Of a DNA stretch of 32,574 nucleotides, positions 5,089 to 24,516 are shown one piece after another (the first letter of the stretch is position 1; the number at the start of each line of letters is the position of its first letter). The stretch is taken from NCBI GenBank assembly GCA_900317375.1, contig ONGJ01000027.1, positions 1-32,574 of the forward strand. Reading direction: 5' to 3'. The DNA is from an uncultured Eubacteriales bacterium. GTDB lineage: Bacteria > Bacillota > Clostridia > Oscillospirales > Oscillospiraceae. Position numbers and translations under genes: made by a program. The notes beneath the pieces are model-generated. The model was not told where the DNA came from, searched no databases, and saw nothing but the letters and a program-made list of their open reading frames with translations.

Positions 5089-6059
5089 ATTTCATTTTTA
5101 TGGCTTTTCAGCCAGGTTTCCGCACGCAGGCGGGCATTCTCACGGATGTTCAGATAGAAGAAGGAATAATCGCAGCCATGATAGCTTGCCGGGCCGAACA
5201 CCTTCTCCAGGTCGGGCATCCCGGTGAGCGCAGTAATGGTGTACCTGTCAAAGTCGGGATTCATGACCATGACCGTGCCTCTTTCCGGATCGATGACGGC
5301 ATCGGCCCCGACCGGCAGTTCATCCATCCCCGGATTCAGGAGATGGGGCACAAAGCTTCCGAGATTCAGCTCGGGGCCTGCAGGGGTATCATCGGTGCGC
5401 CAGTTCAGAGGGTTGATGGACATCGCCCCCCGCGCAACGACCAGAGAGGCCCTCCCCCGGTTGGCAGGCCCCTCCGTATTCCAGGAGACGACGACGCCGA
5501 GATCATCCGCCGTCTGCGCTGCCTTCACATGGGGATTCTTTTCCAGATACTCTCCGGTCAGAGAATCGCCGATGCAGTAGGCGGCGATCATATTGGCGTA
5601 ATAATCCGGGTGTTCTTTCATATACTCCGACAGGACCATGTACGACAGGCGGGAGCCCTGGGAGTGGCCGGCAAGGAAATACGGACGGCCTCCGTTCAGG
5701 TTCTCAAAATAATAATCCAGGGCCGCGTAGACGTCTGTACGCGGCTCGGCCCATTCGGCCGCATCCACCTCTTCAAAGCTCATCGCGGAAAGTTTTGTTG
5801 CGTTCACCTGTCGCCAGTATGGGGTGAAAAGATTGGCGACCGGTTCAAACGCACTTGCCTGCTGTTTGAAGTTTTTTCGGGCCGTCAGGCGCATAATGGG
5901 GTTGTCGACCGTGCAGATCGTGTCTGCAAGGGGATCTTCGCAGCTTGAGGGATACAGATAAAGCAGGTCTGCCGGCTTATCCGGCGTTTGCGGTCGGGAA
6001 AGCCAGTTTTTCTTCTTTGCATAGTCCGACGCGGTTCCGACAAAGGGTTTTATATACAC
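5085..6059 (-). CDS. DUF3089 alpha/beta-hydrolase without signal peptide
   Basis: A predicted lipase/esterase-like hydrolase of the DUF3089 family, 324 residues. The nucleophile elbow is A-G-H-S-Q-G-S with Ser133. Other shared landmarks are LLYLYPSS near residue 33, FTPYWRQ near 78, SINPLNW in the second half and SYHGCDYSFFYLNI near the C-terminus, which supplies a candidate catalytic His. The start is GTG at 6059, with GAGAGGAAGG 8 bases upstream. It lacks the signal peptide of its paralogue at 10071, so it appears to act in the cytoplasm. It is the first gene of an operon with the thioesterase and is driven by the promoter at 6129-6157. Confidence 0.87.
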   Translation of the reverse strand: MYIKPFVGTASDYAKKKNWLSRPQTPDKPADLLYLYPSSCEDPLADTICTVDNPIMRLTARKNFKQQASAFEPVANLFTPYWRQVNATKLSAMSFEEVDAAEWAEPRTDVYAALDYYFENLNGGRPYFLAGHSQGSRLSYMVLSEYMKEHPDYYANMIAAYCIGDSLTGEYLEKNPHVKAAQTADDLGVVVSWNTEGPANRGRASLVVARGAMSINPLNWRTDDTPAGPELNLGSFVPHLLNPGMDELPVGADAVIDPERGTVMVMNPDFDRYTITALTGMPDLEKVFGPASYHGCDYSFFYLNIRENARLRAETWLKSHKNEI

Positions 6060-6128
6060 GGTTATCGCCTTCCTCTCATCCGGTTCATATTGCGGAGATT
6101 GCTATTATGCAGAACAGCACCGGGACAA

Positions 6129-6157
6129 ATTATAGTCCAAAGCGCGGAAGATTGCCA
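6129..6157 (-). promoter_or_regulatory. Predicted promoter for the DUF3089-thioesterase operon
   Basis: On the minus strand TGGCAA (6152-6157), 17 bp, then a perfect TATAAT (6129-6134), about 70 bp before the GTG start. Confidence 0.6.
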
Positions 6158-6207
6158 GCGGTTCCTGCAGAGAATTCGAAATCTGCGATTCGGTATCGGC
6201 ATTGGAA

Positions 6208-6236
6208 CTTGCCTTACGCCTGATCTGATGGTAAGA
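6208..6236 (+). promoter_or_regulatory. Predicted promoter for the secreted protein gene at 6272
   Basis: TTGCCT (6208-6213), 17 bp, TAAGAT (6231-6236). It lies 36 bp before the ATG and is divergent from the promoter at 6129-6157. Confidence 0.5.
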
Positions 6237-6271
6237 TCATTTTACAAAGAATATGGAGAGGACAGAGAATC

Positions 6272-7639
6272 ATGAAAAGAGTATTCACCTTCTGGCTGGC
6301 GCTTCTTCTGCTGGCAGCGCCTGCTGTTTCCTCCCGCGCAGAGAGCGGGGAAACCGCATCCGGCCAGCCGGAAACAGCGGCAGAAAAAGAGACAGTCCCG
6401 GAGGACCTGGTCCGGGATCAGAGTTTTTCGCTTGCCATGGCCGCCTGGCTCGGCGGATACCCGGAATATGTGGACGACGACCTTCTCCGTCTGGACGCGG
6501 CCGGCTGGTATGCCGCTCTTCAGGCGCGATACGGCTATGATCTGATATCCGAAGAGGAACTAAGGGATTATCTCCGCTCCGTGGGATATTCAGGTGACCT
6601 GCGGTTCCCTGAAAGCTGGGAGGAATACGGCATCGTGAACGTCCTCACCAGCAGGGACGGGCGAAGATACTACGACTTCGCCAACCATAAGAATCAGCTT
6701 GCCGAACTGCTTGGCGTCACGATGGAATACCGTCTGAAAACAGCCGGCTGCTCGGTGCTCGTTACCATCGTTCATCATTATGAGGACGGCAGCACGGCGG
6801 AATGGTCTTACGAGCTGAGGTATGTTCACAATGAGGATGCTTCAGGCACTTTCCCCTACCGGCTTGCCGAGCTGAAGGTCTGCCCTTTTGTGCCGAAGAT
6901 CGGCGGAAATGCTGATTTTGACTGGGAGGACCTTCAGTATGCCAACCGGCTGGATACGGTCCTGAAGTTCTGTCCCGCCGTGCACATTGAAAGCGATGTG
7001 GGGGGATATACGGAGCGGTGGCTGTTCCGCACGGAAGAGAAGACGGTCGATATCTCCCAGAACGGCAGTCTGTCCTACGGTCAGGTGAACGGTATCGACT
7101 TCCGGAAGGAGGATGCGGGGAGCCGTGTGCAGGTGGGGAAGATCGACCCGCCCGATGCTGCCGAGGAGAACTTTAACCGCGCGCTGCCGCAGGTTTTCTC
7201 AGACATGGTCCGAATGGAGCTTGTCCGCACGGAGGGAGAGAACAGCGTCCTGAACTGTAAAACGCGAAGCGGGCAGCGGGTGATCATGACGGTCAACAGC
7301 CTGACGCTGTGGATCCAGCAGCTGGACGGAATCGCGGAGGACGGCTCGCTGCTTTACCGGTATACGTTCGGTTACGACCGGCAGCCGCCGCGCCTTTCTC
7401 TGCTGGAAGCCTGGGACGGTCCTCTCAGAACCGTGACGCTGGTCTGGGAAGACTTCCGCAGCGGCGTTTTGATCACCCGGACAGACTTTGTCCGCGTCCC
7501 GGCCGACTGGGAGGTCCTGCCGTATGAAGGACGCTGGGGCGACTTTACGATCTATACGGACCCCGGGCATACCAGCCTGTATCAGTATCCCGGAGACGGA
7601 GCGGACTATACCCTTTATCTGAGCACCGCGAAGGAATGA
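6272..7639 (+). CDS. Secreted hypothetical protein (455 aa)
   Basis: Not recognised. The product starts MKRVFTFWLALLLLAAPAVS followed by SRAES, a clear signal peptide with a likely cut near residue 23. A low-complexity Glu/Thr/Ala/Gly linker follows (about 24-45), then an acidic, aromatic-rich mature region with no further membrane segment. Repeated beta-type strands such as LLGVTMEYRLKTAGCSVLVT, and pairs like YTERWLFRTEEKTVDIS, suggest a beta-rich extracellular fold. Cys is rare. The RBS GGAGAGGACAGAG precedes the ATG. It is a single gene flanked by divergent and convergent neighbours. Without a family match, no function is proposed. Confidence 0.8.
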   Translation: MKRVFTFWLALLLLAAPAVSSRAESGETASGQPETAAEKETVPEDLVRDQSFSLAMAAWLGGYPEYVDDDLLRLDAAGWYAALQARYGYDLISEEELRDYLRSVGYSGDLRFPESWEEYGIVNVLTSRDGRRYYDFANHKNQLAELLGVTMEYRLKTAGCSVLVTIVHHYEDGSTAEWSYELRYVHNEDASGTFPYRLAELKVCPFVPKIGGNADFDWEDLQYANRLDTVLKFCPAVHIESDVGGYTERWLFRTEEKTVDISQNGSLSYGQVNGIDFRKEDAGSRVQVGKIDPPDAAEENFNRALPQVFSDMVRMELVRTEGENSVLNCKTRSGQRVIMTVNSLTLWIQQLDGIAEDGSLLYRYTFGYDRQPPRLSLLEAWDGPLRTVTLVWEDFRSGVLITRTDFVRVPADWEVLPYEGRWGDFTIYTDPGHTSLYQYPGDGADYTLYLSTAKE

Positions 7640-7677
7640 TCCGCACGCCTGTCATTCCATGTCCCTGAAGGTCCTGT

Positions 7678-8242
7678 TCAGCGCCCCAGGAAGAAAATCA
7701 GGGCTGACATCAGGGCAATTGCCGCGATCAGCACCGCCATCCACAGCACGGTTGACCCGGCGCTCTGCTGTTTCACACGGAAGAAGGGATACGGTCCGTC
7801 AAAGAGACCGCGGTAGTTCAGCCAGAGCATGACGGCACCGTAGATGAATGTGATCACCGTCGGGACTGCGATCGCCGAAGGAGACTTCACATGCTGTTCG
7901 ATCAGAAGATAGGAAGCAATGGACAGGATCGGGACCAGAAGATGGTGATACAGGCCGTTGCCTGAAAACAGAAGCTGTTTTGCATCCCCGCCCATCGGAA
8001 CCAGGACACAGGTCGTCACGATAAAGGTCATCAGCAGCATGCAACTGCTGATATACCGCTGATAGACGGTCCAATCCGTCTCACCGAACACCGAATAGGA
8101 TGACAAGCAGAGCCGAACCAGCAGTAATGATATTGGACAGTTGGGTGTAGAATGCGAATATCTTCCAGCCGCGCTCACGGATGCTGATCGACAGCCCTAT
8201 GGCCTCCAGCACAAGGATCAGCAGGCAAATGATTCTTATCAT
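7678..8242 (-). pseudogene. Frameshifted Pr6Pr-like multi-pass membrane protein
   Basis: Two overlapping minus-strand frames make one protein. The first begins at the ATG at 8242 (MIRIICLLILVLEAIGLSIS, with GGAGGAG just upstream), reads through FAFYTQLSNIITAGSALLVI and stops at 8081. The second is entered around 8085-8095 and continues GETDWTVYQRYISSCMLLMT through four more hydrophobic segments to 7678. Restoring one base near 8085-8090 would give about 187 residues and six membrane helices. The order (YTQLSN motif, charged loop, then FIVTTCVLVPMGG) fits the FAR-17a/AIG1-like Pr6Pr family of bacterial membrane proteins. No slippery heptamer is seen, so this is more likely a mutation or sequencing error than programmed frameshifting. 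The upstream promoter (8353-8381) is intact. Confidence 0.68.
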
Positions 8243-8352
8243 ATCTCCTCCACAAACAGGATCCTGCTTTTCACGGTATTCTGCGCCTTCATACATCCGT
8301 CGACCATCAGGCCGGTTCCTGCTGCCGCCTCTTTTCTGAAAGCGCCTCGTCT

Positions 8353-8381
8353 ATCATAAATGCCGTTCCTGCCTTTGTCAA
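8353..8381 (-). promoter_or_regulatory. Strong predicted promoter for the frameshifted membrane gene
   Basis: On the minus strand a perfect TTGACA (8376-8381), 17 bp, TATGAT (8353-8358). About 105 nt of leader would separate the start site from the ATG at 8242. Confidence 0.6.
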
Positions 8382-8504
8382 TGAAAGCCCCCTTCGCGGC
8401 CGTGGTGCGAAATCAGCTGTCCGCAAATTGAGGACAGCTGATTTTCATATGTACTCGGCAGCACCATTCTCTGGGTGGAAACAATACTGCATTGTTGCTT
8501 CCTT

Positions 8505-8636
8505 ATGGTGGCGATTTACCCGCTGGGAGATCACAAGCATGTCGACATATACTGGAAAGGCAGCGACGGTGAGTATGTCGGCGGACAGAACAAAAGGAAT
8601 GATTCCAAGTACAGTATCCGGATTCCGCTGGAGTAG
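8505..8636 (+). pseudogene. Short orphan reading frame, possible gene fragment
   Basis: The stretch 8243-8730 has no intact gene. Within it, 8505-8636 encodes 43 residues starting MVAIYPLGDHKHVDIYWKGS and ending YSIRIPLE. This looks protein-like (Gly-Asp turns, amphipathic strands) and reads as the tail of an exported or binding protein. The same frame is open back to a TGA at 8439-8441, without an RBS. I do not recognise the parent family; it is reported as a possible C-terminal relic only. Confidence 0.25.
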
Positions 8637-9773: not shown

Positions 9774-9851
9774 ACTGTGTGATTGTCTTGTGACAGAAGC
9801 TGTGGTATAGTATGCCTGCATATTGGGAAAGTATTTTCAGGAGGTGCTGAT
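9774..9851 (+). promoter_or_regulatory. Conserved upstream region of double-glycine peptide gene A (promoter, repeats, RBS)
   Basis: This 78-bp region matches the one before the second peptide gene (16449-16525, minus strand) almost base for base. Of the first 30 positions, 27 are identical, and the TTGGGAAA and TTTTCAGGAGG blocks near the RBS are kept. It contains TTGTCT (9783-9788), a 17-bp spacer and TATAGT (9806-9811). TGTGA or TGTGG blocks begin at 9778, 9790 and 9801, i.e. about one helical turn apart across the -35 and spacer, which suggests an operator for a shared regulator. AGGAGG lies 7 bases before the ATG. Conservation and the promoter are observed; the regulator is unknown. Confidence 0.7.
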
Positions 9852-10058
9852 ATGGAAAAGAACAAGGGTAAAGTGCAGCTCAGCGACGAGCTGCTGGATC
9901 CGATCTCCGGCGGTTATGAGGAGGAAGGCAGTGAGGAAGTGACCGGCGGTATGATCGAGATTTGCCGTTACTGCGGCCGACCGATCCGCAACGGAAATCT
10001 CATGGATCATGACGAAAACTGCTATGTCGTAAAGACGCGTCAGCTTCAGCCGTTCTGA
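9852..10058 (+). CDS. Double-glycine-leader peptide A with zinc-knuckle-like core (68 aa)
   Basis: A predicted exported peptide precursor. The N-terminal 21 residues, MEKNKGKVQLSDELLDPISG plus G, have the layout of double-glycine leaders recognised by peptidase-containing ABC transporters (L-S/D-D-E-x-L-D-x-I/V-S-G-G); cleavage would follow Gly21. The remaining 47 residues start acidic (YEEEGSEEVTGG) and then hold CRYCGRP and HDENC, a C-x2-C...H-x3-C arrangement like a zinc knuckle. The leader aligns closely with that of the gene at 16448-16227, and both have the same upstream region. A perfect AGGAGG precedes the start. The secreted DUF3089 gene follows after 12 bases on the same strand, so they are probably one operon. 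A second GG (VTGG, residues 30-33) is a possible alternative cut. A cytoplasmic zinc-ribbon protein remains an alternative. Confidence 0.82.
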   Translation: MEKNKGKVQLSDELLDPISGGYEEEGSEEVTGGMIEICRYCGRPIRNGNLMDHDENCYVVKTRQLQPF

Positions 10059-10070
10059 AAGGAGTTCATC

Positions 10071-11069
10071 ATGAAAAAGCTGAGCCTGCTGTCCGCCCTT
10101 CTGTGCGCCGCCGCGCTGCTTTTGTCGCTCTGCCCCGCATCCCTGGCGGCGGAGACGGAGGCGCTGGATTATGCTTTGCCCGAAAACTGGGCCTATTATG
10201 ATCTGGGTGAAGACAAGCCTGTAGACGTGTTTCTGATCTGCCCGACAGTGGACACCAGAAGCCCGACAAACACCTTTGACCTGAACGAAAAGATCAAAGG
10301 CAGATTTGTCGGCGCCCTTGACGGGGAGAAGGGCATTTATGAGGAGACGGGAAGGCTCTTTTCCCCTTACTACCGTCAGATGTCGATCAACGCCTACCGC
10401 CTGTCGGAAGAGGAGCGGGCCCCGTTCAGGGAGATCGCCTATTCAGATATCTCGGCTGCGTTTCGCTGGTATCTGGAGAACGAGAACGACGGGCGCGGGA
10501 TCATCCTGGCAGGCTTTTCCCAGGGTGCCGATATGTGCCTGCAGCTGATGAAGGACTATTTCTCGGATGAGCAGCTGCTCGAACAGCTCGTCTCTGTCTA
10601 CGCGATCGGCTGGCAGCTCTCGCAGGAGATGACAGAGCAGTATCCGCAGATCGTGCCCGCCAGGTCCGAAACAGACACCGGCGTGGTCATCAGCTACGAC
10701 TGTGAAGACGGCAGTTTGACCGGTACGATCATCAACCCGGCGGGTGAAGTGGCGCTTTCCATCAATCCCCTCAACTGGAAGACGGACAGCACCCCGGCCG
10801 ATAAAGCACTGAATCGCGGCGCGGTCATGAGCGTCGGTGCGAATCCGATCCCCGAATTGTGCGGCGCCTATATCGGCACACGCGGAGAACTGGTCGTGAC
10901 CGACATCGACGCTGCGGATTATCCCCCTCTGCTGGACATTTTCCCTGCAGGCTCGTACCATGTGTATGACAACCTATTCTTCTTCACGAACCTGAAAGAC
11001 AACGTGGCGAAACGCACAGCGGAATGGATGGCCGCACAGCTGGATGAGGAGCTGCCCGCCGCCGCCTGA
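10071..11069 (+). CDS. Secreted DUF3089 alpha/beta-hydrolase
   Basis: A paralogue of the hydrolase at 5085-6059, here with a signal peptide (residues 1-27, a Leu/Ala-rich core ending SLAAE), so it acts outside the membrane. The nucleophile motif is A-G-F-S-Q-G-A with Ser150. VDVFLICPT, FSPYYRQM, SINPLNW and SYHVYDNLFFF repeat the landmarks of the other copy, the last supplying a candidate catalytic His. Length is 332 residues. A strong GAAAGGAG lies before the ATG. It starts 12 bases after the double-glycine peptide gene with no terminator between them, so it is probably co-transcribed from the 9774 promoter. A bidirectional terminator ends the unit. The substrate is unknown; lipid or ester hydrolysis is a family-level inference. 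Confidence 0.87.
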   Translation: MKKLSLLSALLCAAALLLSLCPASLAAETEALDYALPENWAYYDLGEDKPVDVFLICPTVDTRSPTNTFDLNEKIKGRFVGALDGEKGIYEETGRLFSPYYRQMSINAYRLSEEERAPFREIAYSDISAAFRWYLENENDGRGIILAGFSQGADMCLQLMKDYFSDEQLLEQLVSVYAIGWQLSQEMTEQYPQIVPARSETDTGVVISYDCEDGSLTGTIINPAGEVALSINPLNWKTDSTPADKALNRGAVMSVGANPIPELCGAYIGTRGELVVTDIDAADYPPLLDIFPAGSYHVYDNLFFFTNLKDNVAKRTAEWMAAQLDEELPAAA

Positions 11070-11093
11070 AACGGATATAGCCAAGTAAAAAAG

Positions 11094-11127
11094 CTGACCA
11101 TTGCCGAGGCAATGGTCAGTTTTTTTA
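11094..11127. terminator. Bidirectional rho-independent terminator
   Basis: CTGACCATTGC at 11094-11104 and GCAATGGTCAG at 11109-11119 form a perfect stem around a 4-nt loop. It is flanked by seven T's on the plus side and TTTTTT on the minus side, so it serves both the DUF3089 gene and the convergent peptidase gene. Confidence 0.9.
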
Positions 11128-11184
11128 TCCGTTTACATGCCAATGATCAGCTTCCTGTCTGTTCCGTCTGATCGGCAGTACCGT

Positions 11185-13332
11185 TTACGCAACAGGAATA
11201 CGAACGCGGATCGCCGGGTTGTCAACGATGTAGGAATAATCATAATCGATCTCCTCGGCGTTCTTGTCCATGTCAAGCTTCTCAAAGCTTTCGTCCAGGA
11301 AAGCCCGGTAGGGATCCCAGGTCGTCAGGATCAGCTTGAGGTGATGCCCGGGCCGAACCGTATAGACGGTGGGAAGCATATAGATCGTATAGTCATAGAA
11401 TTCGCCGGCCGTCAGAAGAGAGGTCGTCGTGTATTCACTGGAATCATAGCCGCAGCCGGGGTTCGTCAGGTCGGTCCAGCCGTAGGAAATCACCTTCGCC
11501 GCCGTGCTGTCCTGCACGTACTCCACAATCAGGTTGGATTTCCACGCGGAGGCGCCTTCATACTCGCCGATCGTCCGGACCGGCAGCCTTCGCCCCATTA
11601 CATCCTTCAGCATATAGGCGTCAAAGGGCTCTCCGTCATCCGCCGTATCCGCGAGGACCGCCGTGATCATCAGGCCTTCGTACTCCTGAATCTCGCTGGA
11701 AAGGTGCAGGTGGATCTCCGGCACGCCGCAGATGTCCGTTCCTTCCGGCAGGTCAATCACATATTTTGCCGCAAGCCTGTCATCGAGGTCCAGATAGAAG
11801 GTGTCCTGCCCTTCTACGCAGGCATCATCCGGACTGGTGGTGCCCAGCGTGGCCTGGACGTGATCGGCCATGCCTTTGGACTTGACGACGGACCGGTCCT
11901 GATCATAGTGGACCGGGGCGTCCACATAGGTAAAGTCCCGCCAGGAATCCATCGTCCTCCAGCTGCCGTCCAGGTTGGACTGAACAAGCACCGCGGGCAT
12001 GTCGGAGGTCTGATTCTCAATGCCGTACAGCCAGTAGGCAAGCCAGCGGGTCAGGATCTCGTTCCACAGCTCGCCGTTGACCATCGTGTTGTCGAGCACG
12101 TTGTGCCCGTCCTGATGCAGGACCAGGGTCCAGGGCTTCCCCGCCTTTTCGAAAGCCTGCACCATCAGATCCGCCTGTTTTGTATTCACGTTGAAGTCAT
12201 TCAGCCCCTGCACGATCAGGGCGGAGCACTGAATGTTCTCCCAGTCCTTCGAATAATCGGATTCCTCCCAGATGGGGGCGTAATTGCCGTTGGTATTCAG
12301 CTGATCCTGGGCGATCTGCCACAGCCAGGAGCCATATTCCCTGTTCTTTACCGTCCACTTGTTGTCCAGGAAGGTGCCGCCGCAGTTGAAGCCTGCCAGC
12401 GCGTTGGCATAGCTGACGTCAAAGATGGTCGGCACGCCCTGGGAATTCGTATAATCGTACCAGCTGGCGATGCCGGAGGAGGGGATGATGGTTTCCAGAC
12501 CGCGGACGCCGGTGGTGGCGACCTCAAAGGGCAGCGTCCCGCCGTAGGAGCAGCCGGACATGGCGACTTTTCCGTTGGACCAGTCCGCCCGGATCTCGAT
12601 GCAGCCGGTCTTGTCCGTATAGGCTTTCCGATCGCCCGTCAGCCATTCCACCACGGCTTTGTGGCAGTCCCGCTCGAGGTGGGTACCGCAGAGCTCAAAG
12701 CCTTCGGACCCGTAGGTGCCGATGCCGCTGGCCTCCACCACGGCAAAGCCACGGACCAGGTAATAGTCGTAGTTGATCAGGTAGCTGTAGCCCTGTTTTC
12801 CGGACGACTGCGGTACGGTATAGTTCCAGTCCCTGTCCGGACGGGCCGCCAGAGCGCAGTCCATGGTGCTCATCTCTCCCGCAGGGGTCCTTTTTTCGCA
12901 GGCACGGTACAGGCTGTCGTAATCAAAGGGCGTTTTGCTGAACATCGATTCGGGATCGTTATACGCCTCTTCATAGGTCCCAACCCCGTAAGGGGTGGGA
13001 TCATAGATGGTCGCCGCCTTGAATTTCCCCTCGACAGCGGCGCGGGGCACCTGGACCAGCGCCTTGACCAGGTCCGCCATCCCGTCGTTGTCCGTGTCGT
13101 TGTCTGTCTCCACATACACGCAGAAGCGCAGGATGTCGCTGTTTTCATTGCTGTACTTGGGATCCCTGGGGTCGGAATACTCACACATCGGAAGCAGCGT
13201 ACCGTCCTCGATGCGGAGGCCGCCGTCACCGGGCAGCGGTTCTTCCGCCCAGGCCGGCACGGCGCAGGCCGCCAGCACAAAAACTGCCAGCAGGGCTGTA
13301 AGTATCCTGATTCTATGATTTCCGTGTTTCAT
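11185..13332 (-). CDS. Secreted X-Pro dipeptidyl-peptidase-like serine hydrolase (PepX/CocE type)
   Basis: A secreted S15/CocE-type alpha/beta-hydrolase, 715 residues. The start is the ATG at 13332, preceded by GAGAGGAAAG; the longer frame upstream lacks an RBS and overlaps the SIMPL gene. Residues 1-29 are a signal peptide (MKHGNHRIRILTALLAVFVL, then AACAVPAWA). Near residues 74-88 lies VETDNDTDNDGMADLV, the acidic lead-in typical of Xaa-Pro dipeptidyl-peptidases. The nucleophile motif is SGCSYGG with Ser262; VQGLNDFNVNT carries a candidate catalytic Asp and HQDGHN a candidate His. The C-terminal third is a beta-rich jelly-roll (X-Pro dipeptidyl-peptidase C-terminal domain). It probably releases X-Pro dipeptides or hydrolyses related ester/amide substrates outside the cell; CocE-like esterase activity is the alternative. 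Confidence 0.87.
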   Translation of the reverse strand: MKHGNHRIRILTALLAVFVLAACAVPAWAEEPLPGDGGLRIEDGTLLPMCEYSDPRDPKYSNENSDILRFCVYVETDNDTDNDGMADLVKALVQVPRAAVEGKFKAATIYDPTPYGVGTYEEAYNDPESMFSKTPFDYDSLYRACEKRTPAGEMSTMDCALAARPDRDWNYTVPQSSGKQGYSYLINYDYYLVRGFAVVEASGIGTYGSEGFELCGTHLERDCHKAVVEWLTGDRKAYTDKTGCIEIRADWSNGKVAMSGCSYGGTLPFEVATTGVRGLETIIPSSGIASWYDYTNSQGVPTIFDVSYANALAGFNCGGTFLDNKWTVKNREYGSWLWQIAQDQLNTNGNYAPIWEESDYSKDWENIQCSALIVQGLNDFNVNTKQADLMVQAFEKAGKPWTLVLHQDGHNVLDNTMVNGELWNEILTRWLAYWLYGIENQTSDMPAVLVQSNLDGSWRTMDSWRDFTYVDAPVHYDQDRSVVKSKGMADHVQATLGTTSPDDACVEGQDTFYLDLDDRLAAKYVIDLPEGTDICGVPEIHLHLSSEIQEYEGLMITAVLADTADDGEPFDAYMLKDVMGRRLPVRTIGEYEGASAWKSNLIVEYVQDSTAAKVISYGWTDLTNPGCGYDSSEYTTTSLLTAGEFYDYTIYMLPTVYTVRPGHHLKLILTTWDPYRAFLDESFEKLDMDKNAEEIDYDYSYIVDNPAIRVRIPVA

Positions 13333-13415
13333 GCTTTCCTCTCCATTCAGGCTCCGGGCGTGTTGTTTTCTGTCGGAATGAACGGGCAAAGCCCGGCATT
13401 CATCCCAGGGACATA

Positions 13416-14111
13416 TCATCTGTCCGCTTTAAATGTGATTGTAACTCTCGAACTGACAGTCAGTTTTGCCGCCTGTACAAAGGTCTCGGTATCCCCTGCG
13501 GCTTCCACGGAATTAAACATCGTGCTGACACCTTTCTCAGAACTGAAGGTTCCCTGTTCCACAATATCCTCTATGCCGAAGATACTGAGCCCGGCTGCGT
13601 CAGCGTAGATCTCGGCCTTTGCCCGGGCATCCTCTACCGCCAGGCGCATGGCTTTTTCCTTCGCTTCTTTTGTGTCTGTCGCAGAAAAACTGATATCATT
13701 CAGTGTGTTGGCCCCTGCCTCTAAGGCGGTGTCTATGATCTTCCCGACCAGATCGATGTCATTCACGCGGACGGCAAGCGTCGAATTGGCATTGTATCCG
13801 ACGATTTTTTCCGTCTCGCCGGAATAGTCATATCTGGCGTAAATACTGATATAATCCGTATTGATATCCGACTCATCGACCCCTGCCGAGATCAGGGCCT
13901 CTCTGACCGAAGCGATCGCCATATTCACGCTGGCCATTGCCTCAAGGACATCGGGATCCGCAGCAGTGACCCCGAGGGATACCACGGCGGTATCCGCCGG
14001 GACCAGTACCTCCCCCGTCCCGGAAACCGTAATATCCGAATCCGCGAAAGCGAAAGCCGGTATCAGAGACAGCATAAAAAGAACCAGAAGCAGAGATGCA
14101 AGCTTTTTCAT
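13416..14111 (-). CDS. Secreted SIMPL-domain (DUF541) protein
   Basis: A 231-residue exported protein of the SIMPL/DUF541 family, whose periplasmic or extracellular members are of loosely defined function. A signal peptide (MKKLASLLLVLFMLSLIPAF, then AFAD) is followed by the family opening ITVSGTGEVLVPADTAVVSL. The central DYISIYARYDYSG...IVGYNANSTLAVRV and the helix DTKEAKEKAMRLAVEDARAKAE are characteristic. GGAGGAGGAAACGACC precedes the ATG. The same-strand peptidase gene starts 83 bp downstream; the two are probably co-transcribed, but no promoter or terminator was resolved in the gap. Confidence 0.92.
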   Translation of the reverse strand: MKKLASLLLVLFMLSLIPAFAFADSDITVSGTGEVLVPADTAVVSLGVTAADPDVLEAMASVNMAIASVREALISAGVDESDINTDYISIYARYDYSGETEKIVGYNANSTLAVRVNDIDLVGKIIDTALEAGANTLNDISFSATDTKEAKEKAMRLAVEDARAKAEIYADAAGLSIFGIEDIVEQGTFSSEKGVSTMFNSVEAAGDTETFVQAAKLTVSSRVTITFKADR

Positions 14112-14228
14112 GGTCGTTTCCTCCTCCTTTTTGTTATCCTGAATTGTACGACGATCGCTGTACAGAAATCAACACGATATTCATGAATTCAGAAATCTTC
14201 AGAAATTGCGCAGCCGGGCAGTCGATAC

Positions 14229-15977
14229 TCATGCAAAGCAGAAGACGGTATAGTTGAGATTCAGGATATACTGGTACTTCACGGAAGAGGCGGTCTTCCT
14301 GATCATGCTGTAATTTGTGATCAGCTCCTTCGTTTCCTCGTCTTCGTCGAGCATGATGCAGCGTCCGTCGTCCATGATCGTAAAAATACAGCTGTCCGGG
14401 AAGAATTTGATCATCAGCTGGTTGCGGACGTCCCTGCCTCCGTTGGCGGAAACCGCGTAGTGGATCATCTCCTCCATGCACAGCGCGGCACGATAGGCAA
14501 GGCGCTTCGGGTAACCATGCACCTCGGCATAGCGGCGGACGCATTGGGAAGCCTCGATCGCATCCTCCGGCGGGACCGTGAGATAAAGGACCGCTTCTTC
14601 CGGCACCTCACTCTGCATGTCTGTTGAGACACAGAAAGCGTAATGCGCGGCATTGATGAGGAAGAGGAGGGACTCCGCCGCCAGATAGGCGAGCCAGAAC
14701 AGCGGCGCATACAGATGGGACAGCAGGAATGCGAAAACCGGCAGTGTCGCATAGCCGATGACCGTCACGACGGAAGAAAACCGGCTGTCTCCTCTGCCTG
14801 CAAAGTACAGGCGGAAGATACTGTTGAAACCGCGGAAGATGAAATGCGTCACGAACAGACGGAGGCAGAGGAGCCCGGACGCCGGTATTTCCAAAACGCC
14901 GTTGAGGAAAAAGACTGTTTTCGGAAACAGGTACACGAGAAGCGTGATCGAACCGACGATGGCAAGGACCAGCAGGAAACTCCGGCGGACCAGCATGCGG
15001 AGGCCGACGACCTCCCTGGCGCCGTTGTAGATGCCGGACAACGGCCGGGCGGACCCCTGGATGCTCTGGATCGCCACACTGGCAAAGACCAGAGAGAAAC
15101 GGCACACCGCGTTGATTGTACCGCCGGATTCGCCGAATACGGCAAGGAGAATCTTCAGCATGAGTATGCCCTGAAGCGCCATCATGGCGCTGTAGGAGGC
15201 GTCCACGCTGCCCAGTCTGAAGATCCGGACGACATCCTTCATGCGAAGCTTCGCATTGCCGTACTGAAAGATCTCTGTCTTTCTGCGGAGATAGAGGATA
15301 CTGAGCACGCACCGGACCATATTGGCGGCGGCGGTACCATAGCCCGCGCCTGCGATGCCCATGTGAAACACGCCGACAAACAGCAGATCCAGCACAAGAT
15401 TGACGCAGCCTTCCGTTATGGCAAACACAGTCAGGATTTCTGACTTACCGAGTATCATCAGTTCATGGACGCATACCGTTGACGCCAGACCGAAAGGCAT
15501 GGAGATCAGAATCCCGATGCCGTACTGCCAGACCATGCCCTGCATATCGGGGGTAAGATGATAGGAACGAACCAGAATTGCCGCAACCGGGAACTCTAAG
15601 ACGGCGACCGCCAGGGCGGAAACGATCGTCACGGTCACGGCCGCCTTTTTCAGCGGGGCAAGGTCTTCGATCCGGTTGTCGCCCATGCCGGTCGAGAGCG
15701 CCGTGGAGATGCCGGAGGCAACCCAGGTGCAGACAATGCTGATGACGAACGTGATCGGCATGAAAATGCTGACGGCGGAAAGCGCTTCGCTGCCCACCAG
15801 ATTGCCGACCACAACGCCGTCTACGGTTGACAGGAGCAGCGTCGCCAGATTGGTCGCGATCATGAAGGGGAGATAGCTGAGCAGTTTGCGGTGCACCAGG
15901 GAATCGTTGCGGCGGAAGCGTTCCAGCCCTTCGGAAGCAGTCAGTTCACTCAGTTTTGTATATTTCCTTCTGCTCAT
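14229..15977 (-). CDS. MATE-family transporter fused to a C-terminal HATPase-like domain
   Basis: A multidrug/polysaccharide-type MATE efflux protein with an extra cytoplasmic domain, 582 residues from the ATG at 15977 (MSRRKYTKLSELTASEGLER). Residues about 30-440 hold 12 hydrophobic segments with MATE landmarks such as LPFMIATNLATLLLSTVDGV, GNLVGSEALSAVS and GIAGAGYGTAAANMVR. Residues about 459-582 form a separate domain: a helix with LCMEEM (N-box-like Glu), a strand ending FTIMDDG (G1-like), then a charged segment. This resembles anti-sigma-factor type HATPase folds, but the Asn of a true N-box is not evident, so nucleotide binding is uncertain. The Shine-Dalgarno is poor: AGGAAGG lies about 17 bases from the ATG and an apparently better GTG is out of frame. 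Transport could be gated by the domain; inference. Confidence 0.82.
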   Translation of the reverse strand: MSRRKYTKLSELTASEGLERFRRNDSLVHRKLLSYLPFMIATNLATLLLSTVDGVVVGNLVGSEALSAVSIFMPITFVISIVCTWVASGISTALSTGMGDNRIEDLAPLKKAAVTVTIVSALAVAVLEFPVAAILVRSYHLTPDMQGMVWQYGIGILISMPFGLASTVCVHELMILGKSEILTVFAITEGCVNLVLDLLFVGVFHMGIAGAGYGTAAANMVRCVLSILYLRRKTEIFQYGNAKLRMKDVVRIFRLGSVDASYSAMMALQGILMLKILLAVFGESGGTINAVCRFSLVFASVAIQSIQGSARPLSGIYNGAREVVGLRMLVRRSFLLVLAIVGSITLLVYLFPKTVFFLNGVLEIPASGLLCLRLFVTHFIFRGFNSIFRLYFAGRGDSRFSSVVTVIGYATLPVFAFLLSHLYAPLFWLAYLAAESLLFLINAAHYAFCVSTDMQSEVPEEAVLYLTVPPEDAIEASQCVRRYAEVHGYPKRLAYRAALCMEEMIHYAVSANGGRDVRNQLMIKFFPDSCIFTIMDDGRCIMLDEDEETKELITNYSMIRKTASSVKYQYILNLNYTVFCFA

Positions 15978-16164
15978 TCTGCCGTCACTGATTCCTTCCT
16001 GTTCTGTCCCTGAAAAACACCGCTGCCCGTCTGAAGGGGTCAAAGAAATTTTAGCCGATCATGCCCATCAAGTCAAGCCGGGAAATCGGATGCTGTTAAA
16101 AGTTGTTCCCGCCGTCCCGGTATTCTGCTGCGGCCGTGCCGGGGTCATATATCTACACAGAAAA

Positions 16165-16210
16165 GAAGAATGAGAAAGCCTCAGACTAATCCGAGGCTTT
16201 CTCATTCTTC
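16165..16210 (-). terminator. Long perfect-stem terminator after double-glycine peptide gene B
   Basis: An 18-bp perfect inverted repeat (arms 16165-16182 and 16193-16210) around a 10-nt loop, followed on the minus strand by TTTTC. It sits 16 bp after the stop of the peptide gene and separates it from the MATE gene. The outer part of the plus-strand right arm is also part of a repeat found at 20581. Confidence 0.8.
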
Positions 16211-16222
16211 ACCTGGAATCAG
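16201..16222. repeat. Terminator-associated repeat, copy 1
   Basis: 22 bp containing CACCTGGAATCAG, differing at one position from 20581-20602. In both places it directly adjoins a hairpin terminator, with the same orientation relative to the stem. This may be a duplicated gene end or a small dispersed element. Confidence 0.6.
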
Positions 16223-16226
16223 GCGC

Positions 16227-16448
16227 TCACACGCTGATCCAGCCGTGCAGCGGGCACTCTCTGTGCGTTTTCTCCGTCTCAAACGGTCCCAGCATCCCCT
16301 TCTCAACGATTCTGTATGCCGGTCCGCCGCAGGTCGGGCAGGTTCCGTCCTCATACCGTTCCGTCGAGAGAATCACTTCCTCGATGCCGCCGGAGACATG
16401 ATCCAGCTGCTCGTCGTCCAGTTTTACGATCCCTTTGCTGTTATCCAT
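16227..16448 (-). CDS. Double-glycine-leader peptide B with zinc-knuckle-like core (73 aa)
   Basis: Second member of the peptide family. The leader MDNSKGIVKLDDEQLDHVSG plus G matches that of peptide A position by position (M-E/D-x-x-K-G-x-V-x-L-x-D-E-x-L-D-x-I/V-S-G-G), predicting cleavage after Gly21. The core of 52 residues begins IEEVILSTERYEDG, then CPTCGGPAY, then HRECPLHGW near the C-terminus: C-x2-C ... H-x2-C-x2-H, again zinc-ribbon-like but unlike A in length and spacing. AGGAGG precedes the ATG. The upstream 77 bp is a near copy of that of gene A. It is monocistronic: an 18-bp-stem terminator follows 16 bp after the stop. No PCAT exporter or modification enzyme lies nearby. A cytoplasmic zinc-binding protein is the main alternative. 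Confidence 0.82.
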   Translation of the reverse strand: MDNSKGIVKLDDEQLDHVSGGIEEVILSTERYEDGTCPTCGGPAYRIVEKGMLGPFETEKTHRECPLHGWISV

Positions 16449-16525
16449 GATGACACCCTCCTGAAAAAATTTCCCAAGTATATGTGTATGATATCACAGG
16501 TTTTGTCACAAAACAATCACACAGT
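16449..16525 (-). promoter_or_regulatory. Conserved upstream region of double-glycine peptide gene B
   Basis: Read on the minus strand, this aligns with 9774-9851. It has TTGTTT (16511-16516), a 17-bp spacer and TATCAT (16488-16493), three TGTGA blocks about 11-12 bp apart, TTGGGAAA, and CAGGAGG before the start. The matching position of every element relative to the start codon suggests one regulator controls both genes. Confidence 0.7.
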
Positions 16526-20774: not shown

Positions 20775-21079
20775 TTACTCTTTCTCCCGAATCGTTTCCC
20801 CCACGGACTTTTTGATCTCGGAATACAGTTCATCGACCTCGCTTTGGGTGTAATTCGGCATTTCATAGCTTTCGGAAAAAACGATCTTGATGCTCGCAAG
20901 CCGCCCGGCCAATCGCCTTTCACAGCGCAGCTCATACCCGGTCAGGAAAAGATAGTCGCACAGGGTCTCCCCCGCAAACCAGAACAGGATGTACAGCAGC
21001 TCGCGCGGTTCGTCCGCCAGCGGATGATCTCGATCTGCCGTGTAGATTTTGCGTTTTTGATGATCATGTCTGCTTTCAT
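20775..21079 (-). pseudogene. Chimeric relic: amidohydrolase 5' end joined to an unknown C-terminal fragment
   Basis: From the ATG at 21079 (overlapping the stop of the gene above as ATGA) the sequence copies the first 22 codons of the amidohydrolase at 24469, minus one A in an A-run, which throws it out of frame after MKADMIIKNAK. After CTGGCG (end of homology at 21015) a different frame continues RELLYILFWFAGETLCDYLF and ends SEIKKSVGETIREKE at 20775. I do not recognise the second part. It has no start or RBS of its own and looks like the tail of a lost protein. The whole is best read as a recombination scar. Confidence 0.65.
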
Positions 21080-21095
21080 GGGAGTTCTTCCTTTC
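21015..21095. repeat. 81-bp direct repeat, copy 1 (partner 24404-24485)
   Basis: Identical to 24404-24485 except for one T missing from a T-run (21047-21050 versus 24436-24440). It contains the RBS and first codons of an amidohydrolase gene and brackets the compositionally distinct 21.1-24.4 kb segment. Confidence 0.95.
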
Positions 21096-22734
21096 TGTAG
21101 ACCCACTCTCCGCCCACCATGGTTCCAAGCACGGGCGAATCCTGGATATGCTCCGGATCGCACTTGGTAATATCATCGCCAAGTACCACAAGATCCGCTT
21201 CCTTCCCGACAGTGATACTGCCCAGCCTGTCATCACAAAGCATCTGATAAGCCTCATTAATGGTGGTCGCTTCTATCATCTGTTCTATAGTAACGCGCTC
21301 ACCCGCATTATGCAGTGTATCCGGACGACCGGGCTGCTGGCGTATCACACCCTTCTGTATGCCTGTAAGCGGATAGGCCGGATTTGTAACAGGGTAATCA
21401 CTTGCAGAGGTTACCGTAACTCCGGCATCAAAGAAGGCCTTCATCGGAAGCTGATTTTCAGCACGTTCTTCGCCCAAAACAGCGACCATCATTTCAAAAT
21501 ATTCCGGTTCGAAATCAAACCAGTGGGGATCTGTGGAAGCTATAACATTCAGTTTAGCCATACGGGGGATATCCGCCCTGTCTACCACCTGAAGATGGGT
21601 TATGGCATCCCTGTAATCATGAGGTCCTGTCTGCTCCAACGCTTTCTCTATGGCATCTAAAGCCATGCAGAGTGCCCCGTCTCCTATGGCATGAGCATGT
21701 ACCGTAAATCCCAGCTCGTGAGATTTTTTGTATATTTTAACAAGTGTTTCCATGTCAAAGCGGAGCTGCCCGTGATGTTTGTGCTCGACAGACCACGGAT
21801 CTGTGTAAGGCTGCTTCATATATGCTGTTGAAGGTGTCCCCGGCATCATACCGTCTATCTGTATCTTAATATTGTTAAGCTCGAACATGCGCCCCTTTGT
21901 CTTCTCTCTTAAGCTTGCTGCATGTTCTATCTCTCCCATCGTATCAAGACCTTCCGCCTGAAACACCTGATAAGCAGCATAGATATGCATCTTAAGCTTC
22001 CCTTCCATATCAAGCTCATGGTAGGCAAGTGCGGCATTGTCGGTAGTATCCCAGTTGATTATGGGATCAAGGATCAGGGTCTCTCCCTTAGGCAGATATT
22101 CTTCCTGATAGTGCAGGAATCCCTCCTTATACTGCTCAACCGAGAACACGGTAAGCTCCTTTAACAGATCCATGGCACCTTCACGGAAATAACCGGTGGG
22201 ATTCCCCTGATCATCACGGGTGATTATTCCATCACTTATATCCGGCGTGTTCTTATCGATCCCCAGTCGCTCCATTGCGGCATGATTAACCCAATAAGAA
22301 TGATGACCTATATCCGCAAGAACGATCGGTTTATCTGTCAAGCCGTTAAGCAGATCCGCAGTGGGACCGTTTGGTCCCATGTCCGGTGTGGGTATGAAGC
22401 CTGAACCCTGAATAACATCCAGCTCAGGGCGTTCCTCAATGAATTTCTTTAACGCTGCAAGATGTTCTTTTAAAGTACCCATGGGACTTAAGTGTACAAA
22501 GAAAAGCGCTTCCGTTCCTCCGGGTGCGATATGACCGTGTCCCTCTCCAAATCCCGGAAGAATGATACCTTTATCATACCGGATCTCCTCCGTGTCCTTG
22601 TCAATATATTCCTTCACACCCTCTTCGTCGCCCACATAGACGAACTTGCCGTCAGAAATCGCAAGCGCCACAGCCTTGGGATTTTTCTTATCAACTGTAT
22701 AGATATTACCGTAGATGACTTTATTTGCCTTCAT
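21076..22734 (-). CDS. Amidohydrolase family 3 protein (YtcJ-like), copy 1
   Basis: A cytoplasmic metal-dependent amidohydrolase of the amidohydrolase 3/YtcJ group, 552 residues, normal length. Starting MKANKVIYGNIYTVD, it has the N-terminal beta-sandwich (GKFVYVGDE), metal site PGFGEGHGHI (HxH at 66-68), VHAHAIGDGAL, HLQVVDRADI, TDPHWF and the late metal Asp in SASDYPVT. The C-terminal strand returns to the sandwich (GKEADLVVLGDD). AAAGGAG lies upstream of the ATG. The last residues (RKEELP) and the stop lie inside the 81-bp repeat, so the original 3' end may have been replaced. Codon use is more AT-rich (ATA, TTA, AAG) than in flanking genes. The substrate is unknown. It lies 64 bp downstream of copy 2, probably one operon. 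Confidence 0.88.
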   Translation of the reverse strand: MKANKVIYGNIYTVDKKNPKAVALAISDGKFVYVGDEEGVKEYIDKDTEEIRYDKGIILPGFGEGHGHIAPGGTEALFFVHLSPMGTLKEHLAALKKFIEERPELDVIQGSGFIPTPDMGPNGPTADLLNGLTDKPIVLADIGHHSYWVNHAAMERLGIDKNTPDISDGIITRDDQGNPTGYFREGAMDLLKELTVFSVEQYKEGFLHYQEEYLPKGETLILDPIINWDTTDNAALAYHELDMEGKLKMHIYAAYQVFQAEGLDTMGEIEHAASLREKTKGRMFELNNIKIQIDGMMPGTPSTAYMKQPYTDPWSVEHKHHGQLRFDMETLVKIYKKSHELGFTVHAHAIGDGALCMALDAIEKALEQTGPHDYRDAITHLQVVDRADIPRMAKLNVIASTDPHWFDFEPEYFEMMVAVLGEERAENQLPMKAFFDAGVTVTSASDYPVTNPAYPLTGIQKGVIRQQPGRPDTLHNAGERVTIEQMIEATTINEAYQMLCDDRLGSITVGKEADLVVLGDDITKCDPEHIQDSPVLGTMVGGEWVYRKEELP

Positions 22735-22798: not shown

Positions 22799-24469
22799 CT
22801 AATTTACTTTCTTTCCTGCAAAATACACATCAGTAGGCTTGTTATAGCTAAAGCCCTCATGCTCCGCAGAAAGCAGGTCGTTATCAAACACAAGGAAATC
22901 AGCATCCTTACCTCTTTCGATAGAGCCCTTGTTATCTTCTATACCAAGCTGCTTTGCTCCGTTTATCGTATATCCGAGTATCATTTCTTCTATGCTCATT
23001 TGCTCATCTACGGAAGGATTCGCTCTGACGGTCCAATCTGTTTCAGCGGCTCTGGTCTTCTCATTTATCCACCTTGTCATACCAACCTCCATACCAAGGT
23101 ACGGACTCCAGTTGTTAAAATCACCGTAGAGGATATCATCACTGGACCATGTGACATTGGCACCGGTCTTCCAGACCGACTTACAGCGGTACATCTTATT
23201 TGCACGCTCTTTACCAAGCAGCTCACACCAGTTCTTATAAGGATCTCCGCCCATATTTCCCGCATGCCACCATGGCGTATAATTGGCGTTAACATCTAAT
23301 TTTGCGAAACGGTCAATATCCGCATCATCCTGAATCTCAAGATGTGCACAGGTGACCTTCACACGGTACTTATCCCCAAGCTCCTTCTTAGCCAGCTCCA
23401 CACCGTCAAGTACATTACGGGAGGCTCCTTCACCTACAGTGTGCAGGTGCAGGTCAAGTCCTGCCTCATTAAGCCGAATAAGAAGCTCTGCGATCTGATC
23501 CTTATTGAAAGCAGCCGTTCCCTTGTCCCCGGTATCTTCGTAAGGTGTCACAAGTGCTGCCGTTTCTATCTTTAAGGTCCCGTCATTGAAAATCTTTAAG
23601 GTATGCACCTTAAGGTGTTTCGTATTAAATTCACTGTTAAAGCGCTTAAGCTTTTCTATCGCCTCCGGCACCTGGCGGGGCTGTGTGATCACATAGCAGC
23701 CGTCAATATAAACGGGAAGCTCTCCTTCCTCGTCCATTTTTTTCAATCGTCTGTAAACTCTCTCATGAAAATCATTGCATTCCGGAATACCGGCATCAAA
23801 GACACCCACGACCCCTGCATTTACAGAAAAATCGATCCAACGTTTTAGCGCGGCATCTATCTGTTCATCTGTCAGTTTTTCCGCACCATCGATCAGAAAG
23901 CGGGTTTCCGCAGCCGCTTCGAATATATTTCCGGTCACATGTCCATCCTTACGCACATAGTAACTAAGCTCCGGTACGGGATCGATGACATCATCCGTAA
24001 TGCCGTAACGCTCAAGAAGTTTGGAATTTGCCCATACGCTGTGTGCTTCGCCCTCTAAGATCATGATCTCACTGTCGGCACAGACAGCATCAAGATCTTC
24101 CTTTGTGATCTCTTCACCATGCAGAAAAAAGCGCTCCAGTAGGAAATTGTAACTCTCTCTGCCCGGATTGTTCTTAATATGATCAGCTATAAAGTCAAGA
24201 GCTTCCTTTTTACTGTCGCACATAATATACTCACCCATATCCTTATACTCAAACCCGATGGGCATAGTAACATGAACATGACTGTCGATGATTCCCGGCA
24301 TTATGAATTTGCCGCCGAGATCCGTGACCTCGCCCTCATAGGCTGAAAGCCCGGCCTCATCGCCCACGTAGACGAATTTGCCGTCCTTCACCGCGAGCGC
24401 ACTCGCCAGCGGATGATCTCGATCTGCCGTGTAGATTTTTGCGTTTTTGATGATCATGTCTGCTTTCAT
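22799..24469 (-). CDS. Amidohydrolase family 3 protein (YtcJ-like), copy 2, mosaic 5' end
   Basis: A paralogue of copy 1, 556 residues from the ATG at 24469 (AGGAAG 7-8 bases upstream); a further in-frame ATG at 24505 has no clear RBS. Landmarks: KIYTADRDHPLASALAVKDG, PGIIDSHVHV (HxH at 64-66), the LDLHLHTVGEGA strand, CAHLEIQDDADI, and WSSDDILYG with the metal Asp. The first 40 or so codons are GC-rich like the surrounding chromosome while the rest is AT-rich, so the gene seems to be a mosaic of a native 5' end and an acquired body. Its first 22 codons and RBS occur again at 21015-21095. It is the first gene of the amidohydrolase pair, behind the promoter at 24517-24546. Confidence 0.88.
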   Translation of the reverse strand: MKADMIIKNAKIYTADRDHPLASALAVKDGKFVYVGDEAGLSAYEGEVTDLGGKFIMPGIIDSHVHVTMPIGFEYKDMGEYIMCDSKKEALDFIADHIKNNPGRESYNFLLERFFLHGEEITKEDLDAVCADSEIMILEGEAHSVWANSKLLERYGITDDVIDPVPELSYYVRKDGHVTGNIFEAAAETRFLIDGAEKLTDEQIDAALKRWIDFSVNAGVVGVFDAGIPECNDFHERVYRRLKKMDEEGELPVYIDGCYVITQPRQVPEAIEKLKRFNSEFNTKHLKVHTLKIFNDGTLKIETAALVTPYEDTGDKGTAAFNKDQIAELLIRLNEAGLDLHLHTVGEGASRNVLDGVELAKKELGDKYRVKVTCAHLEIQDDADIDRFAKLDVNANYTPWWHAGNMGGDPYKNWCELLGKERANKMYRCKSVWKTGANVTWSSDDILYGDFNNWSPYLGMEVGMTRWINEKTRAAETDWTVRANPSVDEQMSIEEMILGYTINGAKQLGIEDNKGSIERGKDADFLVFDNDLLSAEHEGFSYNKPTDVYFAGKKVN

Positions 24470-24485
24470 GGGAGTTCTTCCTTTC
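24404..24485. repeat. 82-bp direct repeat, copy 2 (partner 21015-21095)
   Basis: Comprises the RBS and codons 1-22 of the amidohydrolase at 24469. This copy keeps the reading frame, so it is the functional one; the copy at 21015 has lost a base. Confidence 0.95.
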
Positions 24486-24516
24486 ATAACAGCTTTTGTA
24501 TTCAATCTGTACCGTG

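Follow-up and report, generated by a model that had tools for sequence, protein, structure and literature searches.

The window analyzed here is a stretch of 32,574 nucleotides of DNA from an uncultured Eubacteriales bacterium of the family Oscillospiraceae (assembly GCA_900317375.1, contig ONGJ01000027.1), and the subject is a pair of short genes on it, P0001 and P0002, together with the larger gene set to which they belong. Each encodes a small protein in which a leader ending in a double glycine (GG) precedes a core containing Cys and His residues. Both genes had been reported in a preliminary description of this DNA, and their positions, translations and Cys/His cores were confirmed. They are organized as follows.

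9774-9816, forward strand: promoter of P0001 (promoter profile R1, 44.2 bits, E 2.8e-11 over the whole genome; one of the 19 sites from which R1 was built)
9778-9783 and 9789-9794, forward strand: direct repeats TGTGAT and TGTGAC of this promoter, the second 11 bp on
9806-9811, forward strand: -10 element of this promoter, of the extended -10 type (CTGTGG-TATAGT)
9839-9844, forward strand: ribosome-binding site AGGAGG of P0001, by direct reading
9852-10058, forward strand: peptide gene P0001, translated into 68 amino acids
9852-9914, forward strand: double-glycine leader of P0001, 21 codons, MEKNKGKVQLSDELLDPISGG, by leader alignment and profile
9915-10058, forward strand: core of P0001, 47 amino acids and stop codon, C-x2-C-x11-H-x3-C, net charge -4
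16227-16448, reverse strand: peptide gene P0002, translated into 73 amino acids
16386-16448, reverse strand: double-glycine leader of P0002, MDNSKGIVKLDDEQLDHVSGG, by leader alignment and profile
16227-16385, reverse strand: core of P0002, 52 amino acids and stop codon, C-x2-C-x21-H-x2-C-x2-H, net charge -4
16483-16525, reverse strand: promoter of P0002, of the same anatomy (R1, 46.4 bits, E 5.8e-12; also among the 19 R1-building sites)

The two leaders are identical at 12 of 21 positions and both fit the pattern M-E/D-x-x-K-G-x-V-x-L-x-D-E-x-L-D-x-I/V-S-G-G, as described earlier; that of P0001 has Leu at -12, Leu at -7 and Ile at -4, followed by the GG. An AGGAGG-type ribosome-binding site precedes both genes alike. 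The Cys and His residues of the cores are spaced C38-x2-C41-x11-H53-x3-C57 in P0001 and C37-x2-C40-x21-H62-x2-C65-x2-H68 in P0002. A second VTGG sequence lies within the P0001 core (window 9939-9950, residues 30-33), which is probably not a second cleavage site because it lacks Leu at -7 and -12.

The genes also share a promoter, TGTGAY-N5-TGTGAC-N5-CTGTGnTAnnnT, located approximately 35 bp upstream. In the DNA alignment the two promoters are nearly identical, TGTGTGATTGTYTTGTGACARAASCTGTGRTAT, whereas the sequence further upstream is much less alike. At up to three mismatches, a 20-base block of this promoter occurs in the window at just these two places, with 0.01 occurrences expected from shuffled sequences, and the 20-base pattern has 25 matches in the genome (3.08 Mb, 161 contigs) compared with 4 for the reversed pattern; these two controls rule out a chance promoter. 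LytTR-type repeats, a candidate identity for the promoter, were set aside by eye. Nineteen of the pattern sites, on 16 contigs, precede GG-leader genes, one of which (a LysM copy on contig C153) has an in-frame stop codon, and the sequence-only profile R1 was built from them, leaving out the remaining six matches (the tandem twin L005, and L015, L023, L025, L026 and L028, which have no visible GG gene). TGTGAY-N5-TGTGAC is fitted by 16 of the 19 sites and TGTGnTAnnnT follows in 18; parts of the promoter anatomy were already included in the search pattern, which did not cover the first repeat or the last bases of the -10 element.

The R1 profile has at least 30 matches in the genome at E<=1e-3, of which 27 precede GG-leader genes. 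A same-strand GG leader begins within 200 bp of 25 of the 30 (median 39 bp), where 0.03 are expected, and two further matches, C78 and C75:7957, front GG genes that were recognized by eye and are not seen by the leader profile. The remaining three stand at a contig end (C49), before a gene for a 226-amino acid protein (C48:21962) and before a T2SSF gene (C120). R1 itself derives from GG genes, so a fair estimate is limited to the 10 sites that played no part in building it (the tandem twin aside), of which 7 precede GG genes. Every promoter count is a minimum, since scoring covered 150 of the 912 first-look candidates here and 61 per genome across the genus. At C9:701-787, two tandem promoter copies, 47 bp apart, precede a cluster of three GG genes. 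The good promoter copy on C120 (L091, C120:23816-23852, reverse strand) precedes the T2SSF gene near a T2SSE gene, of pilus or competence type, and this is the sole clear non-GG target of the promoter with a known family.

Searches with the leader and promoter models yielded a census of GG-leader genes. Leader profile A4, built from 13 leaders, has 36 matches in the genome at E<=10 and 33 at E<=0.05; the leaders of P0001 and P0002, both of them part of the profile, score E 7.5e-9 and 1.3e-8. The table comprises 36 GG-leader open reading frames (ORFs) on 25 contigs, 34 of them in addition to the window pair, and two E<=0.05 leader matches stand outside it, namely the LysM copy on C153 with the in-frame stop and, on C148, a gene with NGG. 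A family of only two members is thus ruled out by the genome-wide pattern, leader-profile and promoter-profile matches. A strong promoter of its own is found at 25 of the 36 ORFs, a further three being downstream members of clusters, and weaker sites precede C136:19926, C155, C92 and C106. Leader length ranges from 14 to 66 amino acids, and the last 12 positions fit L(-12)-x4-L(-7)-x2-V(-4)-x-G-G, with a hydrophobic residue at -12 and Leu or Met at -7 in all 36 leaders and Val or Ile at -4 in 34, the GG itself being present by construction of the list. Glu occupies -8 in 14 of the 36. The tabulated leaders are close to the C39 recognition sequence Leu(-12)-x3-Glu(-8)-Leu(-7) given in PMC6363468.

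The cores behind these leaders are diverse, and 32 of the 36 are at least 39 amino acids long. By a simple rule (one knuckle and at least four Cys/His), which both window cores pass, 13 of the 36 are zinc-like, and 9 of these carry CxxCG, a sequence typical of zinc knuckles; the related zinc-type set that was aligned was drawn from GG genes, and its GG is therefore present by construction. The other 23 cores are not knuckle-like, although two of them still hold three or four Cys residues. A LysM domain is certain in the repeated MA(I/L)NEKEL type (1.9e-15), of which six near-identical copies occur in the one genome, and is above cut-off at C121 and below it at C93:3735; the other LysM copies were assigned by resemblance. 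CW_7 repeats occur in two GG genes (6.6e-14 and 5.5e-26) and PepSY in the set at 1e-12. A GG protein of 149 amino acids has no Pfam match and has look-alikes behind GG leaders in the related genomes G007, G010, G013 and G017. LysM, CW_7 and SH3 are peptidoglycan-binding domains. The preliminary description had proposed a family in which a GG leader is combined with a zinc knuckle; with LysM, CW_7, PepSY, SH3-like and unassigned cores in the set, the knuckle is ruled out as the defining trait, and the family is better defined, on sequence grounds, by leader and promoter. Among the LysM-GG copies L013 (C38), L024 (C50) and L022 (C153), two lose their common sequence at one and the same codon, following INQKLTI, and continue into differing DNA, and one has an in-frame TAG; these may be recombination or assembly junctions at a repeat.

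Four ATP-binding cassette (ABC) transporters with a C39 peptidase domain, all above the Pfam cut-off, were found in the genome. They are of the NHLM/NHLP kind (TIGR03794, TIGR03796, TIGR03797): three exceed the TIGR03796 cut-off of 853.3 (NHLM ABC1) and the fourth, on C101, falls just below it at 813, while of the three ABC2 partners tested one is above and two are below cut-off, and the short HlyD-like proteins are weak, sub-threshold matches. Classic NHLM/NHLP substrates carry Nif11 or nitrile-hydratase-like leaders, and the window leaders differ from them in that neither P0001 nor P0002 matches the Nif11 leader model TIGR03798 at E<=1.

Across 102 genomes of the genus, the promoter was detected in at least 46, the leader in 59 and a strong exporter in 66, the last defined by an author-chosen threshold (best E 1e-120 or better) that compares with 63 genomes above the curated cut-off. 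A strong exporter is present in 55 of the 59 leader-positive and 11 of the 43 leader-negative genomes (Fisher p 5.6e-13), and in 43 of the 46 promoter-positive and 23 of the 56 promoter-negative genomes (Fisher p 1.8e-8); these p-values, uncorrected for kinship, are too good because the genomes are related and many are incomplete. In 15 genomes from elsewhere in the order, all of other families, the promoter was found in none and the leader profile in two. Of these two leader matches, the one in G035 (L116) looks spurious; in the other, from G029 (L113, C32), a genome with no promoter match, a long GG leader is followed by a core of zinc-ribbon-like type (CPVC...CKTC). The earlier proposal that leaders of this kind direct export by C39 transporters is well supported, if indirectly, by the four transporters, whose absence would by that description have refuted it, by the agreement of the leaders with the recognition rules and by this co-occurrence, which together make such export probable.

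In the three relatives whose exporter loci were examined (G013 contig 4, G007 contig 25 and G017 contig 58), the exporter pair is accompanied by GG genes, most of which have a promoter copy to themselves; by eye, they are of LysM, CW_7-like and 140-150-amino acid types, and the loci also contain response regulators and large genes of secreted or lipoprotein-like type. In the loci designated L162, L163 and L166, promoters, response regulators and GG genes of LysM and CW_7-like type lie next to the exporter. The LysM and CW_7 types are kept across the genus. The LysM-GG protein has 26 matches in the genome_contigs database, with promoter matches (E<=0.05) in 11 of the 26 loci; L192 and L193 are ordinary LysM proteins. 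In the other 24 the GG is kept in 23, partly as read by eye, L187 having VG. Their titles name Oscillospiraceae in 10, Lachnospiraceae in 2 and other clostridial or broader groups in 12, so that the placement in Lachnospiraceae assumed in the preliminary description is not borne out; a ruminant gut site is named in 13 of the LysM-GG locus titles.

No full-core homologue was found at E<=0.01 for P0001 in 101 genomes of the genus or for P0002 in 102. Beyond itself, P0001 has one leader match in its own genome and five partial matches in G015, of which three end by residue 30 and two reach residues 41 and 47, at the first knuckle; P0002 has one G015 match, covering residues 1-30. Distant kinship among the zinc-type members is possible because those two matches extend to the knuckle. 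A search of phages with P0001 and one of plasmids with P0002 gave no match. G015 carries many zinc-type GG peptides of its own, and P0001 and P0002 look like species-level members of a fast-changing zinc-type class.

The single-sequence AlphaFold model of P0001 is uninformative, with a mean predicted local distance difference test (pLDDT) score of 66. That of P0002 is all beta, with block means of 86-94 over residues 21-70, the mean exceeding 70 in just two of five models; a Foldseek comparison with PDB folds gave no convincing match (best E 0.68). In phmmer searches of the PDB, P0001 resembled the PRDM9 zinc fingers (2.6e-5), a value summed from repeated weak matches for which homology was not accepted, and the sole match of P0002 was a rubredoxin (0.9).

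The reading that we favor, with a probability of roughly two in three, is that P0001 and P0002 belong to a dispersed, co-regulated, leader-addressed secretome of small folded proteins, several of them wall-binding, for which C39 transporters would provide the export and a PhoB/WalR-style regulator the control. An OmpR/PhoB-family regulator, possibly encoded at an exporter locus, would bind the pair of TGTGAY/C direct repeats, which are spaced by one helical turn and overlie a poor -35 element, and would activate the extended -10 promoter that precedes each gene or small operon. The C39 domain of at least one NHLM-type exporter would recognize L(-12), L(-7) and V/I(-4) and cut after the GG, whereupon the core would be exported and would then fold outside the cell. 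The cargo would be modular, comprising peptidoglycan-binding LysM, CW_7 and SH3-like domains, PepSY, and a fast-changing Cys/His zinc-ribbon-like set that includes the window peptides. Most likely the site of action of these small proteins would be the cell wall or its immediate exterior, with zinc-type members perhaps serving as lineage-specific binding modules, one of which may work with a secreted DUF3089 hydrolase. Such a range of cargo is plausible because the microcin V exporter carries many diverse small proteins, with length as the main limit (PMC10231218).

Two direct repeats 11 bp apart at the -35 place together with an extended -10 element constitute the activation layout of the OmpR/PhoB family. 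Encoded 2.2 kb from the C69 exporter is a response regulator whose DNA-binding domain is of OmpR type; judged by position only, it would be the best candidate for the regulator. The arrangement resembles the WalR/YycF regulon in its two TGTxAx hexamers 5 bp apart and in its wall-related targets. It differs in that G replaces A/T in each hexamer, one base per hexamer, relative to the Bacillus subtilis WalR motif TGTWAH-N5-TGTWAH (PMC9210968), and in that the targets are GG-leader proteins.

Several observations weigh against this interpretation. None of the 19 sites fits the strict WalR motif TGTWAH-N5-TGTWAH, the Trans_reg_C domain of the C69 regulator scores 24.6 bits, just under the 26.2 cut-off, and one of three regulators tested shows a receiver only, with no Trans_reg_C domain. 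Two strong R1 matches front non-GG genes (the T2SSF gene and that for the 226-amino acid protein), 11 of the 36 tabulated ORFs lack an individual strong promoter, one ORF of just 24 amino acids is doubtful, and four cores are 20 amino acids or shorter. The agreement of the leader and promoter profiles is partly by construction, as both derive from overlapping gene sets. The contig of P0001 and P0002 carries no exporter; 23 of the 56 promoter-negative genomes hold one, and 3 of the 46 promoter-positive genomes are without a strong one. The SH3-like assignment is below cut-off in each of three GG genes of this genome, although a GG protein of the relative G010 passes it (28.0 of 27 bits). Finally, neither window peptide reaches a curated Pfam zinc cut-off, the best match of P0001 being zf_C2H2_13 (19.7 bits against 26.5) and those of P0002 DUF5679 (13.7 of 27 bits) and Zn_Ribbon_Prim (13.5 of 23 bits).

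One neighboring gene may work together with P0001.

10071-11069, forward strand: DUF3089 alpha/beta hydrolase, 332 amino acids, with a signal-like N-terminus (Pfam DUF3089, E 3.6e-46)

Its start codon lies 12 bp past the P0001 stop codon, and the gene is a probable operon partner of P0001. In the relative G015 (L161), another zinc-type GG peptide is encoded 36 bp ahead of a DUF3089-amidohydrolase gene, the two enzymes being 30% identical. The link between GG peptide and DUF3089 is no more than suggestive, because C75:3772, the likely orthologue of that G015 peptide in the present genome, has no DUF3089 gene directly downstream. The cores of C75:3772 and the G015 peptide differ by nonsynonymous (dN) and synonymous (dS) values of 0.41 and 1.48, which suggests selection to keep the protein, in a single pair with high dS. 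Elsewhere in the window, an Xre-type helix-turn-helix precedes a response-regulator receiver in one protein, an unusual order (24628-25236, forward strand), and its gene overlaps a histidine kinase gene (25233-26537, forward strand); three Amidohydro_3 proteins are encoded on the same strand within 9 kb (21076-22734, 22799-24505 and 28112-29818, reverse strand).

The strongest rival, which we nevertheless consider unlikely, holds that the Cys-rich members, the window peptides included, are precursors of ribosomally synthesized and post-translationally modified peptides (RiPPs), modified in trans by radical S-adenosylmethionine (SAM)/SPASM enzymes (thioether, ranthipeptide-like) and then exported. 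Two exporter loci elsewhere in the genome speak for it.

C48 (L030), 479-1828, reverse strand: radical SAM/SPASM protein, best NCBIfam match TIGR04463 'rSAM_vs_C_rich' at 169.8 bits
C48 (L030), 5703-6032, reverse strand: Cys-rich GG gene (CxxC...CxxC)
C48 (L030), 6083-6433, reverse strand: SPASM-domain fragment, 27.4 of 27 bits, between the GG gene and the exporter
C48 (L030), 11499-11885, forward strand: weak Nif11-like leader gene, 19.2 of 32.3 bits, beyond the exporter
C101 (L031), 6597-8531, reverse strand: rSAM_ocin_1, RiPP maturation radical SAM C-methyltransferase (TIGR03975, 497.7 of 281.85 bits)

The Cys-rich GG gene on C48 is divergent to the exporter genes, about 0.5 kb off, with the radical SAM/SPASM protein about 4 kb away, and these genes around the NHLM exporter are possibly a separate RiPP cluster; rSAM_ocin_1 on C101, above its cut-off, adjoins the NHLM exporter pair. 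For prochlorosins, moreover, a single promiscuous enzyme can act on precursors encoded at scattered sites (PMC10783134). On the other hand, the TIGR04463 match lies far under the 525 cut-off, and no radical SAM maturase was found among the window proteins tested. The statement of the preliminary description that no modification gene is adjacent thus holds for the window neighbors tested, whereas it does not extend to the C48 locus. The 23 cores that are not knuckle-like, with LysM, CW_7 and PepSY folds in the set that need no modification, and the CxxCG of 9 of the 13 zinc-like cores, as expected of zinc knuckles, also argue against general modification.

Somewhat less probable still is that the set represents class II-type bacteriocins, of which the wall-binding ones would target the peptidoglycan of competitors. 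GG leaders and C39 exporters are hallmarks of bacteriocins, the zinc-type cores change fast between species, and with the bacteriocin signal model TIGR01847 a single GG protein of G017 scores barely above the cut-off (15.8 of 15.7 bits) and three of this genome come close to it. No recognized immunity gene was found among the window neighbors tested (the DUF3089 hydrolase, S15 peptidase, SIMPL, MATE and MS (mechanosensitive) channel proteins and unnamed ORFs), where small uncharacterized ones could escape. Class II bacteriocins are usually cationic, and both window cores, at net -4, are acidic; six near-identical LysM copies and genus-wide LysM and CW_7 types are likewise unlike an arms race. 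That the peptides are secreted signals sensed by two-component systems would account for the response regulators at exporter loci but is improbable for a set so large and diverse, with 32 of 36 cores of at least 39 amino acids and several with known folds. Zinc ribbons are usually cytoplasmic, and yet the idea that these are cytoplasmic zinc-finger proteins with an accidental leader likeness is hardly tenable given the leader profile, the common promoter and the exporter co-occurrence.

The favored secretome has partial precedents. It resembles the prochlorosins and synechococsins (ProcA/SyncA, ProcM, LanTP), whose numerous precursors combine a single conserved GG leader with varied cores and can be encoded at scattered sites (PMC10783134); scattered GG precursors as such are already known from that system. 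Theirs are Nif11-family leaders and lanthionine-modified cores, in contrast to the mostly short leaders, folded domains and common promoter seen here. No lanthionine synthetase turned up among the neighbors tested, and no genome-wide search for it was made. LahT of Lachnospiraceae C6A11 and the microcin V exporter are alike in cutting GG leaders and tolerating many cargoes (PMC6363468, PMC10231218), although the cargo there consisted of nine natural peptides from a single cluster, or was engineered, rather than showing the natural genome-wide diversity found here. Of the literature matches listed, none, judged by title and opening abstract, deals with a regulon in which GG-leader folded domains (LysM, CW_7, zinc-ribbon) share a promoter, most subscription papers lying outside the search.

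A GG leader together with a C39 exporter is normally taken as the sign of a bacteriocin system. If the favored reading is true, these bacteria have a secretion route for small folded proteins with a regulon of its own, one that is readily overlooked since its genes are small and dispersed. A broader reading, about as likely as not, is that in a genus of gut Oscillospiraceae-like bacteria the GG leader would have become a general secretion signal parallel to Sec, serving a one-promoter regulon of dozens of scattered genes for folded modules, with NHLM-type C39 exporters, an exporter-linked OmpR-type regulator and zinc modules that turn over between species. Extracellular zinc-ribbon-like modules would be unusual. 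The promoter provides a handle for listing the cargo across the genomes of the genus, and the role of such exporters when they do not export an antibiotic becomes testable.

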